Part shown: one piece after another, positions 10,423-17,731 of the stretch
How the letters are laid out: each line of letters begins with the position of its first letter
Position numbering within the stretch: position 1 is the first letter of the stretch
NCBI GenBank assembly: GCA_026415135.1
Contig: JAOAHS010000014.1
Span: forward strand, 1-38,970
Direction of reading: 5' to 3'
Origin: Calditerrivibrio sp.
Lineage (GTDB): Bacteria; Chrysiogenota; Deferribacteres; Deferribacterales; Calditerrivibrionaceae
Length of the DNA stretch: 38,970 nt
Notes under the pieces: generated by a model
Seen by the model: only the letters and a program-made list of their open reading frames with translations
What the model was told of the DNA's origin: nothing
Database searches by the model: none
Made by a program: the position numbers and the translations under genes

Positions 10423-11622
10423 TTAAAAACTTTTGGGGCTATGCATATTGAAAAAACCACATTTTCGGTAATATAAAAGGTCTTTTACCCAATCTCTGTA
10501 AAAAGTATTGTTTTTAAAGATATCGTTTATTTGATGTATGGGAAATCGTTTTAGATTGATCAGAGGTGAAAACAATACTGATGGATCTCTAAAACATTCC
10601 CAATCGCATTTAACACACTCAAAGTTGACTTTTTCAATCCTTCTATGAAAAACACCCAATCTATGATCTGATAAAAACCCACAAGGGTATGTCTCCCCTG
10701 TGCTATCTACAAAAAAGAAATCTTTACCACCCCTACAGCTAAAGTTTTTCAAAGGAACTCCTTTGTATTGGGCCATTAACACATTTATGGAGCTTAAGGG
10801 GGTAAATATCCTGATTTTATCGCGAAACTTAGGGATCGTATCATAAATAACTCTAAACAGTACCTTTTTTTCTTCCTCATCATATTTTACAAGTCTCTCG
10901 GAGGATTCTGCCCTGTAAACAGCACCATCAAAACTCATAGGATAGCAAAGATTTGCAATAGTAAAACCTAAATCTATAACAAACTTAAAAAACTTAGTTA
11001 AGCCTAAACTATAGCTCTCATAAAACTGATCAGGATTAAATTTCCCATTTAAGTCATACTTTTGACTACCTGTCTCAATTAACCTATTTATCCCCAGATT
11101 TACAGATGGGTACAAGGAATACTGTTCAAAAATCTTAAGACCTTTTTCAATACCTTTTATAACACCAAATAGCCCCCTGTTTGACTCATGTTTTTCTACA
11201 TCATAGGTATCTATACTAATCCAGAAGGTATATAGGTTTGATGCTTTTATTCTCTGAGCCAACCTATGGATCCTCTGCTCGAAATCACTTTTAGTATGTC
11301 CCATAAAAATAAAACCGTTTGTACCTGTTCTGGTAAATATTATACCTTTTGAACTTGCATATCTTATGTATGAAAAAAGCTCATCCTGCAGTAGCAAAGG
11401 CTCCCCACCAGTAAAGGATATGGCCTTTATGTCAGCAAAAACAGCCTCATCAATAATCCTTAAAACCTCATCCCGGGGTAATGACCATCTTTTATAACTA
11501 TTGTTTTTGTTCATACCACATTGGGGACATGTGGCATTACAATGGTCAGTGATCTGGATAATCAATTGCCCTGAAATGTTCTTTTTAAACAGCAACTTAA
11601 ATATCTCTTTAAAATTTCCCAT
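10423..11622 (-). CDS. Radical SAM protein with C-terminal Cys-rich (SPASM-like) region
   Basis: A 399-aa soluble protein. CNATCPQC (Cys28, 32, 35) is the CxxxCxxC motif that binds the radical-generating [4Fe-4S] cluster. SFTGGEPLL (about residues 69-77) is the GGE SAM-binding motif. The C-terminal part carries further cysteines (CRGGKD, YPCGF, CVKCDWEC) typical of SPASM/Twitch domains that hold auxiliary clusters in peptide- and protein-modifying enzymes. It starts two bases after the cytochrome stop with no ribosome site, so translation is probably coupled. Its substrate is unknown; the neighbouring exported proteins are the obvious candidates. Confidence 0.8.
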   Translation of the reverse strand: MGNFKEIFKLLFKKNISGQLIIQITDHCNATCPQCGMNKNNSYKRWSLPRDEVLRIIDEAVFADIKAISFTGGEPLLLQDELFSYIRYASSKGIIFTRTGTNGFIFMGHTKSDFEQRIHRLAQRIKASNLYTFWISIDTYDVEKHESNRGLFGVIKGIEKGLKIFEQYSLYPSVNLGINRLIETGSQKYDLNGKFNPDQFYESYSLGLTKFFKFVIDLGFTIANLCYPMSFDGAVYRAESSERLVKYDEEEKKVLFRVIYDTIPKFRDKIRIFTPLSSINVLMAQYKGVPLKNFSCRGGKDFFFVDSTGETYPCGFLSDHRLGVFHRRIEKVNFECVKCDWECFRDPSVLFSPLINLKRFPIHQINDIFKNNTFYRDWVKDLLYYRKCGFFNMHSPKSF

Positions 11623-11624
11623 AT

Positions 11625-13343
11625 CTAAAAAATAGTATCTTTTATACCTGTTGATTGCTTAGGTTGTACGCTCTTATGGACACTTTTGTCTAAGGGCTCT
11701 GTATTAGCATCTCTTCCTTTAGTAAAACTTTGATTTTTTACTATTACCATGTAGTTCTTATTTAATGTCTCAGCCCTTTCTTTAGAGGGATAAAGCAATA
11801 TAGATATATCATTTTTGAGCACTTCTAATATGTCAGTTTTAATTGATCCATATATATTAAAAAATTTTTTAAGTATCTCATCATTTGTCCTAAACTCATT
11901 ACCTGATTTATTATTTTTTAGGTAAAAAGCGTATTCATTTTGTTTCCCATATTTTTGATACTCAACTATAGGCTCTTTTACATTTTTAATACCGTATTTA
12001 GACCAATAACCCCATTCAAATTTTCTCACATAGGAAAAAGTAGAATCAGTGGTAGCTCCTATGGTATCATGACAACCCATACAAAAGAGTGTTTCCTCAT
12101 TAGTTTGTGGTCTTAAATTTCCCCATTTGTCTTCTATATACCCACTATATCTCCAACCATAAATGTTTTTCATACCTTTTTCATAATCCCCAGGAAATGC
12201 CTCAATTTGAGGTTCTGGATTTAATGACTTAGAGGGATGTCTTTCTTCCAATTTTTTTTCTATAAGCGCTCTTATTTCAAAAGATGATAACCATTCCTCT
12301 TTTATCGCATATCTAACCTCTTTCATCCTGTTAGACATTTTAATCTGTTTATTTTCCTCATCCCAATCAATATATCTAACAGTATGCAAAAACTCGGTAT
12401 ATTTCGGAAAAAGCCCAGGCTCAAGTTGCAATTCACCTCTATTAAGCAGTAATTTCGATTTACCAACAGGAGTTAAGTGCTTCTTAAATTTAATTTTATT
12501 TGTCACTCCTAAATATCCATCATCATCCAAATCTGTGCTTATATACTTTTCATCTAAATAATCATTGCTTACAATATCTGCTTGCTTAACAAATGATTCA
12601 ATAATATTCAGATTGGCTATCCAAATTTTTTTATCAAATTCACCCTTTTCATTCTTCATAAAATATTCAGGTAATCTTATTATAACATCATCTGTTGAAC
12701 CATTTGTTGGCCAAAAAGTTCCCTGAAATGGGTAATACTTATAAGCTCTCCAACCAGTATATTGACCAGTCTTTGGATTTCTATCAAAACCATCTTCATC
12801 AAAATTGAAATAGCAGTCTGGAATATAACCTTTCCAATTTTTAGGTAATTTTTTATAAAGTATAATATCTCCTTCATCGTTTAAGTAGTTACTCTTTCTT
12901 ATATAAGTGTACATTTCATCATTGGAAATCTTATTCACTTCTTTACTTCTATCTTCAAAAAGATTTTTATAAGGGTTTTCTAACATGGTTGTAGGAAAAT
13001 CATAACTTTCTTGTAATTCTGTATCAGCCATAGCATTAGGTAGTTTTCCAACAGTGTGACAGGGATAGCATGGATTATGTACCACCCCATTTTCATCTAT
13101 AGTCTTGGTGTAACACATTGATGGGATATAAGCACCTTTGTTTTCAATTTCTTCATATTTGATTCCATTCTCTTTTTCTAAATTTGCTATGAACGCCCCT
13201 TTTTCATCATCTCTTATTTCTGTAAATAACTCTTTTAATTTAGAATCAGTACTTGAATTGCAAGATAAAATATATAAAAATAAAAACCATGTTAATATCT
13301 TCAAAAAAAAGGGGAAGTTATCCCCCTTAATTTTTTCACTCAT
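11625..13343 (-). CDS. Diheme c-type cytochrome lipoprotein, unknown family
   Basis: A 572-aa exported protein. A hydrophobic signal of about residues 13-27 ends in the lipobox LSC, making Cys28 the probable lipid-modified residue. Two heme-binding motifs are seen, CYPCH (92-96) and CMGCH (421-425), widely spaced, so two c-type hemes are expected. The long region between them has no motif I recognise. The ATG at 13343 follows GAGGT by four bases. A terminator-like hairpin lies within codons 6-14, and a TTG after it (13304) would begin a minimal signal peptide. It lies 2 bp downstream of the PhoX-like gene and directly upstream of the radical SAM gene. Confidence 0.75.
   Translation of the reverse strand: MSEKIKGDNFPFFLKILTWFLFLYILSCNSSTDSKLKELFTEIRDDEKGAFIANLEKENGIKYEEIENKGAYIPSMCYTKTIDENGVVHNPCYPCHTVGKLPNAMADTELQESYDFPTTMLENPYKNLFEDRSKEVNKISNDEMYTYIRKSNYLNDEGDIILYKKLPKNWKGYIPDCYFNFDEDGFDRNPKTGQYTGWRAYKYYPFQGTFWPTNGSTDDVIIRLPEYFMKNEKGEFDKKIWIANLNIIESFVKQADIVSNDYLDEKYISTDLDDDGYLGVTNKIKFKKHLTPVGKSKLLLNRGELQLEPGLFPKYTEFLHTVRYIDWDEENKQIKMSNRMKEVRYAIKEEWLSSFEIRALIEKKLEERHPSKSLNPEPQIEAFPGDYEKGMKNIYGWRYSGYIEDKWGNLRPQTNEETLFCMGCHDTIGATTDSTFSYVRKFEWGYWSKYGIKNVKEPIVEYQKYGKQNEYAFYLKNNKSGNEFRTNDEILKKFFNIYGSIKTDILEVLKNDISILLYPSKERAETLNKNYMVIVKNQSFTKGRDANTEPLDKSVHKSVQPKQSTGIKDTIF
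13303..13328 (-). terminator. Terminator-like hairpin inside the start of the cytochrome gene
   Basis: On the minus strand an 8-bp stem (13321-13328 with 13309-13316, one G-U pair) closes a four-base loop and is followed by eight T residues (13303-13310). This is a good intrinsic terminator, yet it falls about 15 bases after the annotated ATG. It could limit readthrough from the PhoX-like gene, or act as an attenuator sensitive to translation of the first codons. Confidence 0.7.
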
Positions 13344-13345
13344 AA

Positions 13346-15280
13346 TTACCTCTCAGAAAAGATCCCTGCAGGTATACCCTTGATCAATCCTACTATTCCC
13401 TTTTTCTTATCTGTGTTTTGATCAAGATATTTCTGATTTACTACATCTCCCTTTACATTTCTAAACTTATCAACAAATGGATGCTGGATGTTAAGAGTTA
13501 TAACATAATTATTATTAATATTGCCTACTTCAAAAACTCCCGTAACCTCAGCACCTGTAGGTACTGTAGCTATCCTTGTTAATTTTTTAGTTTTTAAGTT
13601 ATATGCCCATGCCATGTTATTTAAATGATTAGATGTATCTTCTCCTATCAGTAAAATGTTCCTACCAATATATCTTATATTATCTGGATTAGCAATTTTA
13701 TTTACATCACAACGATTTTTATCACTTCCTGGATCACCATCTTTTAATGGGCTACCCAACACCAAGCCTTTCATATAATAAGCATTGTAATAGTTATCCA
13801 ATCCAAGCTCATAAACACCTCCACAATCATTAGTTGTAAGTCTAATATCTCCTAAATTATCAGACATACCAGCTCTTATAGAAGATATGGCAATATAGAC
13901 CTTATTCTCATCATGGTTATAAGCCAAACCCTCACCTTTTTCAAATTCAATAGTTGCTCCCAATATACCAGCATATCTTCTTGTTTCTAAAAAAGCTGCT
14001 GCCAATTTCACCTCATTATCATTGCTAAATTTATTTGATCTGTTTTGTCCAACTTTGAGTCTTAAACATTGAGCCATCCCATCTTCCACAATAAAGGAAT
14101 ATCCTAAATCAGTCTTACATAAGCTTGCATTATCAATACTCTTGATATTAGCATCAATATCAAATATATCACTAACTATCAATTTCTTATCAATAAGCTT
14201 TTTAATATCGTTATCACAGCTAGTACCCAACTTAATCCAGTTAACCAAAAATGTTCCACCGTTTTGGCTGTCATATTGATCTAATTTAGCTGCATATAGA
14301 GTGCCACACCAGTTTGAGCTAAAAGTTGTTTGTGGCTTATCTAAGACTAATTTATAAAGACCTTTATATGATCCATCATCACTCAAATACATTGTCTTAT
14401 TATCAGGCATGATGATAGCTTGTTCAGGAGTATATTTTCCAGTGATATAGTGTTTTGCTACTTGTATCGTACCATTATCATTCACCTTAACCTCAACATT
14501 ATATCCATATTTATATGGATTGAATCTATCTCCATGATAACCTTTAGTAACATCAATGTTTAAATCAAGCAGGTACCTTTGCATTGAACCAACATACTGA
14601 CAAAAATAATCACCTTTTCCATTTGAATTATTACCATTAAAATAACCTGTGTTGTTATCTTTTTGACAGATAGTATAATAAGGTGAAGCATTATCAGCAT
14701 AAATAGTATTTAAATTATAATCTTCTTCACCACCCAAATGTGTATTCCAAGGCGTTCTTGTCCCAGCACAATTTATTAATGTACCATCAACTGAGGAAAA
14801 ATCTATATTTTCAGTATTTTTAGCTTTTAAAGTAACAGGATCAAGTTCTGTCTTATACAACATACCACCTGGTTCCTCAAAATGTGTTATCAAATAATAT
14901 TTACCACCTATGTTTAAAATACTGTTAGCATCGGGATTATATGATACATAATCCATACTATAAGCTAAGTTTTTAAATGGTTGTTTATTAACATCCAACA
15001 ATTGCCCGAAAACTGCAACACCCAATGTTGTTCCTGTTTTTAAAATTTCATTATAAGACAAAGGGTATTCTTGAGAAGAACCATCATCATACTTCACAAT
15101 AAGTTTATTACTAACTCTCACAGAAACAATTTCATCATCTGTAACAGGAACACTAACTTCCTGAAACTCAGCCGATACAATATTTTTGGTTTGTGGAACA
15201 CCATTAGAATCACCACCACATCCAGACATCAAAAACATTGAAGCTATTACAGCGGTACCGATAATAGTTTTTTTGAACAT
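13346..15280 (-). CDS. PhoX-like (DUF839 family) exported lipoprotein
   Basis: A 644-aa protein with a signal peptide ending at lipobox MSGC (Cys21). The body resembles the PhoX/DUF839 beta-propeller phosphatases. NCAG with TPW and GEE (residues 170-186) matches the PhoX segment whose Cys bridges the iron pair. YLSDDG, LGATIEFEKGEGL and a DNIRYIGRNILLIGED block follow in the family order. Characterised PhoX enzymes are calcium/iron phosphatases exported by Tat. Here the signal has no twin arginine and looks like a Sec lipoprotein signal, so folding and iron loading would occur outside. Strong GGAGG site before the ATG. Phosphatase activity is inferred only. Confidence 0.65.
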   Translation of the reverse strand: MFKKTIIGTAVIASMFLMSGCGGDSNGVPQTKNIVSAEFQEVSVPVTDDEIVSVRVSNKLIVKYDDGSSQEYPLSYNEILKTGTTLGVAVFGQLLDVNKQPFKNLAYSMDYVSYNPDANSILNIGGKYYLITHFEEPGGMLYKTELDPVTLKAKNTENIDFSSVDGTLINCAGTRTPWNTHLGGEEDYNLNTIYADNASPYYTICQKDNNTGYFNGNNSNGKGDYFCQYVGSMQRYLLDLNIDVTKGYHGDRFNPYKYGYNVEVKVNDNGTIQVAKHYITGKYTPEQAIIMPDNKTMYLSDDGSYKGLYKLVLDKPQTTFSSNWCGTLYAAKLDQYDSQNGGTFLVNWIKLGTSCDNDIKKLIDKKLIVSDIFDIDANIKSIDNASLCKTDLGYSFIVEDGMAQCLRLKVGQNRSNKFSNDNEVKLAAAFLETRRYAGILGATIEFEKGEGLAYNHDENKVYIAISSIRAGMSDNLGDIRLTTNDCGGVYELGLDNYYNAYYMKGLVLGSPLKDGDPGSDKNRCDVNKIANPDNIRYIGRNILLIGEDTSNHLNNMAWAYNLKTKKLTRIATVPTGAEVTGVFEVGNINNNYVITLNIQHPFVDKFRNVKGDVVNQKYLDQNTDKKKGIVGLIKGIPAGIFSER

Positions 15281-15297
15281 ATTTTAACCTCCTTTTT

Positions 15298-15333
15298 TTA
15301 ATATTATTTTAGAAATTAATATTATTTTAGAAA
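15298..15333. repeat. Tandem 18-bp direct repeat upstream of the PhoX-like gene
   Basis: Two perfect, abutting copies of an 18-bp AT-rich unit (15298-15315 and 15316-15333) lie just upstream of the ribosome site of the PhoX-like gene. Each unit contains TAAAAT/TAATAT on the minus strand. They could be duplicated regulator sites, alternative -10 elements or a slippage product. Confidence 0.85.
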
Positions 15334-15409
15334 CAAGTTGTTATAATTAGATTATATTAATGTAAAAAAATAGTAATTTAACTTTAAAATAATTGAAAAA
15401 AATCAACAA

Positions 15410-17731
15410 TCAGAATATCCCCCTTAGTACCTGTTCCCAATCGTATTTATATTTCACATTTGTAAAAGATTCGTATTTCATGGAATCTATTTTTGGATTG
15501 CTTTCTATTTTCCATTTAATATAGGTAGATATCTTATTTACCCAATCATCGAGATCATTGGCTCTTGCCACGAAACCTGTCACTTTATCTATAATAATCT
15601 CCTTTGGTCCACCAACATCTGATACTATAGCAGGTAACGCACAAGCCTGAGCTTCCAGTACAACCATTCCAAAGGTATCGGTATTGCTTGGAAATACAAA
15701 AAGATCCCCCATGCTATAGTACTGGGGCAATTCTTTGTTCTTTATTTTACCTACAAAATAAATATGTTTATGCCGGTACCTATGCTCTGCTTTATCTTTG
15801 TATGGACCATCCCCAATCAAGAATAGGCGCAACCTATTCTCTGGGAACCTATTTAGAAGCTCGAAATAGATCTCCATTAGAAAATCTATATTTTTATCCT
15901 TTGATATCCTACCCACATAGATAAGATTAATGCTTTTTGAGTCTGATAGGTTGTAAATAGGACGAAAGATTTCAGTATCAACACCCCTGTTAAAAACACC
16001 ATTACATTTCGTAACCCCTCTTTTAGATAACATGGATAAATACTGTTCTGATGTAGGTTTTACAATGTCCACCATATTATAGAAGAAATTAACATACCTT
16101 TCCACAAACTGGGCAAGGGATTCATCTTTGCTTATCTGAAAAACCTCTTTAGTAAAATCAGTATGGTATATACCTATTGTTTTTATATTGAGCACCTTAC
16201 CTACTATAAGTCCCAAAATCCCAACAGGACCTGGTGTAGATATATATATCTCATCCGGTGCAAAATCGCTAATTATCTTTAGAGACTTCATAATAGAGGG
16301 GATCTTGATTTTAAGATGGGAATAGTAGGGAAGTTTAAAATCGATTATTGGAGGCAAGTTAACATAGTTTGCTGGTAATTCATTGGAAAACTCATCTTCA
16401 TTTAGGGATCCATAGATAATAAGAGGTAGGTTTCTTCGAAACGCCTGTACACCTAAGGCTTTAATTGTCACAGAGACACCATTGAGATCATTAATAGTAT
16501 CTGTAAACCAAGCAATTTTTTTAACTTTACCATTATCAGCCCTAAATCTATTGCAAAGATCATTTATCAACTGATGGTCTTTGAAAGATATTCTAAAAGA
16601 TGAGAAAAAAGGTATCGTCATAAAAATGCCGGGTAGTGCTGCCACAAATGATTTGTATATGCCATCCAGCGAACTTCCCTTTTTATTCAACTTTTTGAAA
16701 ATATTACGAATAAATTCATCAGATATCTCCGATATTTTATCAAAAACCACTTCAAACCTTCTATTTATATCCTCCTCGGAGATCTCTTTTAACTCCCTTA
16801 TCAAATCGGAAAAAAGCCTATGAATAGTACTTTTCTTTTTTAACCTTCTCAGCTTAAATTCTTCCCAGAAGCCATTTTTTTTAGTTGAAGATATATTTTC
16901 TATCAGCTGACCTATCATCCCCCCTGCAAGATATATTGTTTTATTTTTTTGGGAGTATTCGTAAGCTATTTTGTAAATATTAAAAGCAAGCGTATAAAAA
17001 TCAGCAGATGTTCCACTATATTTTACCCCCCCTTTTTTTAACTCAATCAAAAACTCAGAAATAGTTTTAGCCGTGTCAGAATAAGTATAAGCTTTGGCCA
17101 TCATCAATCCAGAGTGATCATCAGAACCTGCAGTGATGATCTTTTTATGGGGATTGTCACCTTGAGGTATTATACTATGCTTTTCTGCAAGTACCTCGAT
17201 GTCACTTTTAGTTAAATTGGTAACTATAGAAATGAATTTTTCGTTGTAAAGAGCCCCTCTACAGGCATTGATACCTTCAAAGGTATTGAAAAGCACCAGT
17301 AGTTTTTCTAGATGCTCCAGAGTAAGTCTATCATTTACTGAATAGATAGGATGAGCCACAGAATGAGCTATATCAGAAGTTATAAGATATTCCCTTAAAT
17401 CATAGATGTTATACCTAAGTTTATCTATCTCTTTAAATTGATCCTCATTTATATCATATATCAAGATATGTACTTTACAATCATCTTCTGGAAAGTGGGC
17501 AGTAGCTTCAACGCTGATAAAAGTATCATCAGGAAACTTCTCTTTGAGTTTTAAACAACCTCTAATCGTATTATGATCTGTAATTGTTACGGCATCCATA
17601 CCCCGATCTTTGAGTTTGTTGTATAAAAATTCTGGCTCAGTATAGGACTCCGCTGCCCCAATTCTTTTTAAAAACCACTCCGTAGGCTTTTTCGAATATT
17701 TTGAATGTAGATGCAAATCGACTTTTAGCAT
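15410..17731 (-). CDS. PHP-domain / group 1 glycosyltransferase fusion
   Basis: A 773-aa two-domain protein. The first ~270 residues are a PHP metallo-phosphoesterase domain, with DLHLHSKYS at residues 5-13, then ITDHN, AHPIY and GSDDHSG supplying metal ligands. Residues about 390-773 are a GT4 (GT-B fold) glycosyltransferase, with WFTDTINDLNGVS, YVGRISKDKN, LIGDGPYKD and FPSNTDTFGMVVLEAQA containing the ExxxxxxxE nucleotide-sugar site. A hydrophobic patch near 360-375 may touch the membrane. The likely role is glycan or glycolipid synthesis, with the PHP part removing a phosphate; substrates are not evident. GGGTGA precedes the ATG, 10 bp after the PIN-PhoH gene. Confidence 0.85.
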   Translation of the reverse strand: MLKVDLHLHSKYSKKPTEWFLKRIGAAESYTEPEFLYNKLKDRGMDAVTITDHNTIRGCLKLKEKFPDDTFISVEATAHFPEDDCKVHILIYDINEDQFKEIDKLRYNIYDLREYLITSDIAHSVAHPIYSVNDRLTLEHLEKLLVLFNTFEGINACRGALYNEKFISIVTNLTKSDIEVLAEKHSIIPQGDNPHKKIITAGSDDHSGLMMAKAYTYSDTAKTISEFLIELKKGGVKYSGTSADFYTLAFNIYKIAYEYSQKNKTIYLAGGMIGQLIENISSTKKNGFWEEFKLRRLKKKSTIHRLFSDLIRELKEISEEDINRRFEVVFDKISEISDEFIRNIFKKLNKKGSSLDGIYKSFVAALPGIFMTIPFFSSFRISFKDHQLINDLCNRFRADNGKVKKIAWFTDTINDLNGVSVTIKALGVQAFRRNLPLIIYGSLNEDEFSNELPANYVNLPPIIDFKLPYYSHLKIKIPSIMKSLKIISDFAPDEIYISTPGPVGILGLIVGKVLNIKTIGIYHTDFTKEVFQISKDESLAQFVERYVNFFYNMVDIVKPTSEQYLSMLSKRGVTKCNGVFNRGVDTEIFRPIYNLSDSKSINLIYVGRISKDKNIDFLMEIYFELLNRFPENRLRLFLIGDGPYKDKAEHRYRHKHIYFVGKIKNKELPQYYSMGDLFVFPSNTDTFGMVVLEAQACALPAIVSDVGGPKEIIIDKVTGFVARANDLDDWVNKISTYIKWKIESNPKIDSMKYESFTNVKYKYDWEQVLRGIF

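Follow-up and report, generated by a model that had tools for sequence, protein, structure and literature searches.

A PhoX-type protein and a diheme, partly P460-like cytochrome as a conserved gene pair in Calditerrivibrio and other bacteria: a probable phosphate-starvation module

Introduction

PhoX is a major phosphatase whose canonical form is exported by the twin-arginine translocation (Tat) system, which carries folded proteins; to our knowledge, the assembly of its Fe/Ca cofactor is not understood. In a stretch of 38,970 nucleotides from Calditerrivibrio sp. (contig JAOAHS010000014.1, hereafter the window), a gene for a PhoX-like lipoprotein is followed by genes for a diheme cytochrome and a radical SAM protein. 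An earlier note on this DNA had read the three genes as one module, in which the radical SAM enzyme would covalently modify one of the two exported metalloproteins. The locus thus raises the question of which of these genes belong together and, ultimately, of what a phosphatase would require a redox partner for.

Results

Gene layout of the window

The three adjacent genes lie exactly where the earlier note had placed them, all on the minus strand and with gaps of 2 bp between neighbours (Table 1). The order found here, with the PhoX and cytochrome genes standing between the PHP-GT4 and radical SAM genes, is unique among the Deferribacterota genomes compared. In the tree, the window cytochrome clusters with a Sulfurihydrogenibium cytochrome (57% identity, support 1.0), and the G+C content of the PhoX and cytochrome genes is 0.30-0.32 against 0.36 for the whole window; the pair is therefore likely to be a horizontal insertion.

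Table 1. Features of the PhoX-cytochrome locus and its flanks in the window.
Feature	Position	Strand	Remarks
PHP domain + GT4 glycosyltransferase, generally next to the radical SAM gene, outside the PhoX-cytochrome pair	15410..17731	(-)	PF00534, 113.6 bits
A+T-rich gap 5' of PhoX, probable promoter region	15281..15409	(-)	12% G+C
PhoX protein, likely phosphatase, K-type, predicted Sec-exported lipoprotein	13346..15280	(-)	644 aa, lipobox LMSGC
Diheme c-type cytochrome, predicted lipoprotein, C-terminal half P460/c'-beta-like	11625..13343	(-)	572 aa, plausible lipobox ILSC
Radical SAM protein, SPASM-like C-terminal cysteine set, outside the PhoX-cytochrome pair	10423..11622	(-)	399 aa, CNATCPQC

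The radical SAM gene and its usual neighbour

The radical SAM protein matches PF04055 (48.6 bits) and none of the SPASM models; all of 15 orthologs retain its C-terminal cysteines C296, C314, C336, C339 and C343, so that the term SPASM-like used in the earlier note is still fair as a description of this cysteine set. None of the NCBIfam equivalogs was reached, the best score being 61.6 bits where 500 is required.

Among 51 genomes of the phylum Deferribacterota, the gene is present in 15, eight of which have no cytochrome gene, and in 14 of the 15 it lies directly downstream of PHP-GT4. In the six other genomes that have both the radical SAM and the cytochrome genes, these are on different contigs or far apart, and the radical SAM gene was not found in one cytochrome-carrying member of the phylum (G015). 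A radical SAM relative occurs in none of 80 PhoX-cytochrome loci of other genomes, searched up to 6 kb on each side. The three genes thus do not co-occur elsewhere, an outcome that the earlier note had named as refuting its reading, and a three-gene module is rejected by synteny: the radical SAM gene goes with PHP-GT4 and is a mere bystander of PhoX and the cytochrome. This second pair is itself conserved in 14 other Deferribacterota genomes.

Distribution and co-divergence of PhoX and the cytochrome

The cytochrome is encoded in 8 of the 51 Deferribacterota genomes, each time with an adjoining PhoX gene. A scan with the cytochrome alignment, limited to one genome per species, yielded 80 loci from many phyla, 69 of which have PhoX next to the cytochrome; of the remaining 11, eight are no more than 1 kb from the end of their contig, and in the other three (L083, L089, L091) at least 2.6 kb of DNA upstream of the cytochrome contains no PhoX. 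The order is mostly PhoX followed by the cytochrome, the two genes being divergent in 11 pairs. In Campylobacterota the cytochrome was found in 6 of 101 sampled genomes, always beside PhoX (6/6), and in one gammaproteobacterial order in 27 of 79, with PhoX within about 300 bp in 25; one of the two exceptions is split over contigs (G240) and the other (G187) has no PhoX at the limit used. Carriers of the pair belong to Campylobacterota, Gammaproteobacteria, Deferribacterota, Desulfobacterota, Leptospirae and Aquificota, and include the presumably aerobic Pseudoalteromonas and Oceanobacter.

In a set of 37 loci, sequence identities among the PhoX proteins correlate with those among the cytochromes (Mantel r 0.81, against at most 0.17 in 2000 permutations). 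It is nearly certain, in our view, that the genes for PhoX and the diheme cytochrome form a real, conserved and co-diverging unit. PhoX of the same clade often occurs without the cytochrome and the cytochrome rarely without PhoX; the dependence is therefore one-sided, of the cytochrome on PhoX.

Some loci carry further genes. In L119 (2263-3471) a 402-aa exported protein, possibly phytase-like by a motif recognised by eye, is encoded between PhoX and the cytochrome, and in L087, L093, L097, L109 and L112, from genomes of the Oceanobacter/Thalassolituus/Oleispira type, a conserved 452-aa protein is encoded on the opposite strand downstream of the cytochrome.

The PhoX protein

That the first gene encodes a PhoX relative, as the earlier note had supposed, was borne out by the DUF839/PhoX profile PF05787 (94.2 bits, cut-off 24) and by the AlphaFold model (pLDDT 92.4), whose best fold matches are the Pseudomonas fluorescens PhoX structures 3zwu and 4a9v (E 1.7e-19). 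Residues C171, E286, D302, K448 and E450 are invariant in 53 relatives, and the alignment equates C171, E286, D302 and E450 with C179, E273, D292 and E387 of 3zwu; we take C179, E273 and E387 of the canonical enzyme to be ligands of the Fe/Ca site. All the Fe/Ca-site residues tested are kept with the exception of Arg385 of 3zwu, which is replaced by Lys448: lysine stands at this position in 53/53 relatives against arginine in 7/7 canonical PhoX, the latter being seven sequences from plasmid records. The same Arg-to-Lys change was reported for the picocyanobacterial phosphatase Psip1, in which the lysine is said to be functionally similar (PMC11098088). By its sequence, the paired PhoX is assigned to a separate Lys-type clade of PhoX.

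The export signals differ as well. A Tat motif is absent from all 62 paired PhoX, at least 39 of which have a lipobox-like motif, whereas the seven canonical sequences all carry SRR. Among related PhoX encoded without the cytochrome, those of Azospirillum, Agrobacterium and Paraburkholderia carry the SRR motif and those of Chromatiales and Priestia mostly lack it; in particular, Chromatiales have 16 Sec-exported copies of the same clade without a cytochrome, and Priestia likewise has such PhoX. In the tree, a paired group (pdiv) is basal within the Lys-type clade and the lone copies are nested at several positions, some inner supports being low, which suggests that the cytochrome was lost repeatedly. 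The comparison of paired with lone copies yielded no residue that is conserved in the former and lost in the latter, and therefore no modification site stands out. As a variation in architecture, a choice-of-anchor I domain (PF22494) is joined to the PhoX of L100 (186-3692) in one protein, and the PhoX open frames of L088 and L115 are similarly long.

The diheme cytochrome

The window cytochrome has CxxCH motifs at residues 92-96 and 421-425, both of which, together with Cys77, are invariant in 64 relatives. The earlier note had called it a diheme cytochrome of no known family; this holds for the window copy taken alone, which has no Pfam or NCBIfam match, and no longer for the C-terminal half, whose likeness to P460 is suggested by the relatives. 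When E values up to 5 are allowed, a permissive limit, 62 of the 64 relatives match PF16694 (Cytochrome_P460; best 2.4e-7) and the window copy does not, and relatives scanned singly score 19-22 bits, below the cut-off of 27. The AlphaFold model (pLDDT 91.7) gave seven top Foldseek matches that are all P460 or c'-beta cytochromes, at weak E values of 0.12-0.87; a sequence search of solved structures returned nothing meaningful.

A profile alignment of the whole cytochrome with P460 proteins of the same genomes, modest in score when taken alone, pairs 'LFPKYTEFLH' with 'PWPDGAILAK' as well as the C-terminal 'CxxCH...D..F' of both groups. Counted along the solved chain, the aligned lysine of P460 is Lys78 of the Methylococcus capsulatus protein (McP460), which is the lysine cross-linked to the heme (reviewed in PMC11928373). 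This position is occupied by His320 in the window cytochrome and by histidine in 63 of the 64 relatives, with glutamine in the remaining one; the invariant K341, which had been considered as the cross-link lysine, was rejected because the alignment places His320 there. Since histidine replaces the cross-link lysine, the C-terminal half is classified, on alignment and fold, as a distant P460/c'-beta superfamily-like domain and not as a P460 in the strict sense. An identity as MauG or bacterial cytochrome c peroxidase was ruled out by the lack of a match to PF03150, which neither hits the window cytochrome nor is among the 25 families listed for the 64 relatives.

Several relatives are extended by propeller domains. 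The cytochrome of L108 (6001-8955, about 985 aa) ends in a cytochrome d1-type beta-propeller (PF02239, E 1.3e-68), and those of L053 (5896-9072), L073 (2480-5569) and L082 (5884-8919) bear a fused PD40 propeller and a third CxxCH; these fusions may point to a broader redox role of the cytochrome. The cytochrome of L111 (5803-8760) is nearly as long as that of L108. In G015 a separate gene with CxxCH and PD40 (L018, 11074-12438, minus strand) lies directly downstream of the cytochrome, where the window has its radical SAM gene; the cytochrome gene of this genome is split into two reading frames (L018, 12452-14409), owing to a frameshift or an assembly error.

Phosphate-starvation context

The 250 bp upstream of PhoX contain a Pho-box-like direct repeat (TGTMAY-N5-TGTMAY, one mismatch allowed) in 21 of 60 cases, compared with 17 of 389 for control genes (p 8e-11, with the relatedness of the loci ignored); the enrichment is seen in the forward orientation only. 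The initial scan with the Escherichia coli Pho-box consensus agreed (p 1e-7, again ignoring relatedness); among the controls, its highest scores fell on one pstS-like and one phoB-like gene. The pair is adjoined by pst operons in L056, L057, L065, L115 and L123 and by PhoRB-like genes in L064. At the level of the family, Pho control of the PhoX-cytochrome pair is thus likely, and the pair is probably switched on by phosphate starvation; in the gap upstream of the window's own PhoX no convincing Pho box was found, the best score (9.5) being at background level.

Discussion

A possible role of the cytochrome in PhoX maturation

Because the residues of the Fe/Ca site are conserved and the context is one of phosphate starvation, the window PhoX is likely a phosphatase and the cytochrome looks like an accessory. 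The suggestion of the earlier note, an electron-transfer role rather than that of a simple phosphatase, is retained in one part: a redox component is involved, since the PhoX gene is conserved together with that of the diheme cytochrome, while the enzyme itself is probably still a phosphatase.

The reading that we prefer, with somewhat less than even confidence, is that the two genes form a phosphate-starvation module and that the cytochrome acts on PhoX by oxidation, maturing or maintaining its diferric centre. A PhoX-type Fe(III)/Ca phosphatase would be exported unfolded through Sec as a lipoprotein; its Fe/Ca centre would be built outside the cytoplasm, because the paired PhoX is not exported folded via Tat; the dedicated periplasmic diheme cytochrome would withdraw electrons, setting or keeping the two irons of PhoX ferric, and would pass them on to the periplasmic c-type chain; the matured PhoX would then release phosphate from phosphoesters. 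The module as such is well supported; the part played by the cytochrome, namely oxidising PhoX or keeping it diferric in the periplasm, is inferred. A maturation role is suggested by Sec export, by the one-sided dependence of the cytochrome on PhoX and by the parallel in Flavobacterium, where phoX shares an operon with the gene for an unrelated, MauG-like cytochrome, the two genes are induced by Pi depletion, and PhoX was inactive when expressed alone in Pseudomonas putida (PMC8812569, PMC8115612). Lone Sec-exported PhoX of the same clade in Chromatiales and Priestia imply that the cytochrome is not universally required, and they weaken Sec export as the sole reason for its presence. In addition, in the presumably aerobic carriers Pseudoalteromonas and Oceanobacter the iron could be oxidised by air, which argues against a need for maturation. 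The maturation reading is further weakened by the lack of any residue that sets paired PhoX apart from lone copies, by the propeller fusions with their hint of wider redox functions, and by the absence of a clear Pho box at the window's own PhoX.

Alternative explanations

The cytochrome could instead act on a separate small molecule, such as NO, hydroxylamine, peroxide or a sulfur species, and meet PhoX only in regulation, for example in protection or respiration during phosphate starvation. Relatives of the P460 and c'-beta type do oxidise hydroxylamine or bind NO or CO (PMC11928373), and the fusion of some cytochromes to a d1-type propeller fits such chemistry; the near-exclusive adjacency to PhoX, the co-divergence of the two proteins and the very small number of cytochromes without PhoX make this explanation unlikely.

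We consider it still less likely that the cytochrome modifies PhoX covalently in the manner of MauG, by side-chain oxidation or cross-linking. Such an activity was proposed for the Flavobacterium PhoX and its MauG-like partner (PMC8812569), and P460-fold proteins bear an oxidative heme-lysine cross-link themselves (PMC11928373). However, the present cytochrome is not of the MauG/CCP family, with its hemes 329 residues apart and a P460-like C-terminal half, and paired and lone PhoX are not told apart by any residue.

Ranked below both is an oxidoreductase: a phosphorus compound would bind to the PhoX-like protein, and electrons from the oxidation of a reduced phosphorus substrate, such as phosphite or a phosphonate, would go to the cytochrome, with phosphate as the product. 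Pho-type regulation with pst linkage, a diheme partner dedicated to PhoX and the d1-type or PD40 fusions would all suit this idea, which we nonetheless judge improbable: the Fe/Ca-site residues fit a hydrolase, PhoX of the same clade is common without any cytochrome, and such chemistry is not known for PhoX.

Covalent maturation of PhoX or the cytochrome by the radical SAM enzyme before export, as put forward in the earlier note, draws on the tight packing of the three genes in the window and is highly improbable, the gene being absent from the 80 loci, partnered with PHP-GT4 elsewhere and present in genomes without the pair.

Comparison with known systems

The cysteine sets of the window radical SAM protein, CX3CX2C and the C-terminal one, resemble those of radical SAM/SPASM maturases, from which it differs in going with PHP-GT4 and in reaching no NCBIfam equivalog. 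The window PhoX resembles the canonical P. fluorescens enzyme in its fold and in the residues equivalent to C179, E273, D292 and E387; the paired PhoX differs from it in having Lys for Arg385, a Sec signal, often of the lipoprotein type, in place of Tat, and a dedicated cytochrome. With P460/c'-beta proteins (PF16694) the cytochrome shares, in its C-terminal half, the CxxCH followed by an Asp-Phe motif, and it departs from them in its length of about 520 residues, its two hemes, an N-terminal half without a family match and His320 in place of Lys78; it would extend the P460 superfamily by a member with two hemes and His for Lys.

A published parallel is fjoh_2478 and fjoh_2477 of Flavobacterium, where PhoX and a c-type cytochrome are likewise encoded in one operon and both are induced by Pi depletion. 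The Flavobacterium cytochrome belongs to PF03150 (CCP_MauG) whereas that of the window is P460-like, so the pairing with PhoX would be convergent. A bolder reading, which we regard as rather doubtful, is that of a new redox-coupled phosphorus-acquisition system, in which a diheme P460-fold cytochrome with a His-modified or His-ligated heme would install the Fe/Ca cofactor of PhoX by oxidation or couple PhoX to the oxidation of reduced phosphorus compounds, PhoX having recruited unrelated cytochromes at least twice (P460-like and MauG-like).

In the literature searched we found no description of a Lys-type, Sec-exported PhoX paired across many phyla with a diheme, His-for-Lys P460-like cytochrome, nor any work linking P460 and PhoX in a relevant sense. 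PhoX and P460 are each already known, and what appears to be new is their pairing across phyla. With a cytochrome that accompanies a Sec-exported clade of PhoX, the maturation of the PhoX cofactor becomes accessible to testing, and the pair would tie phosphate acquisition to redox conditions in sulfur-cycling and low-oxygen habitats.
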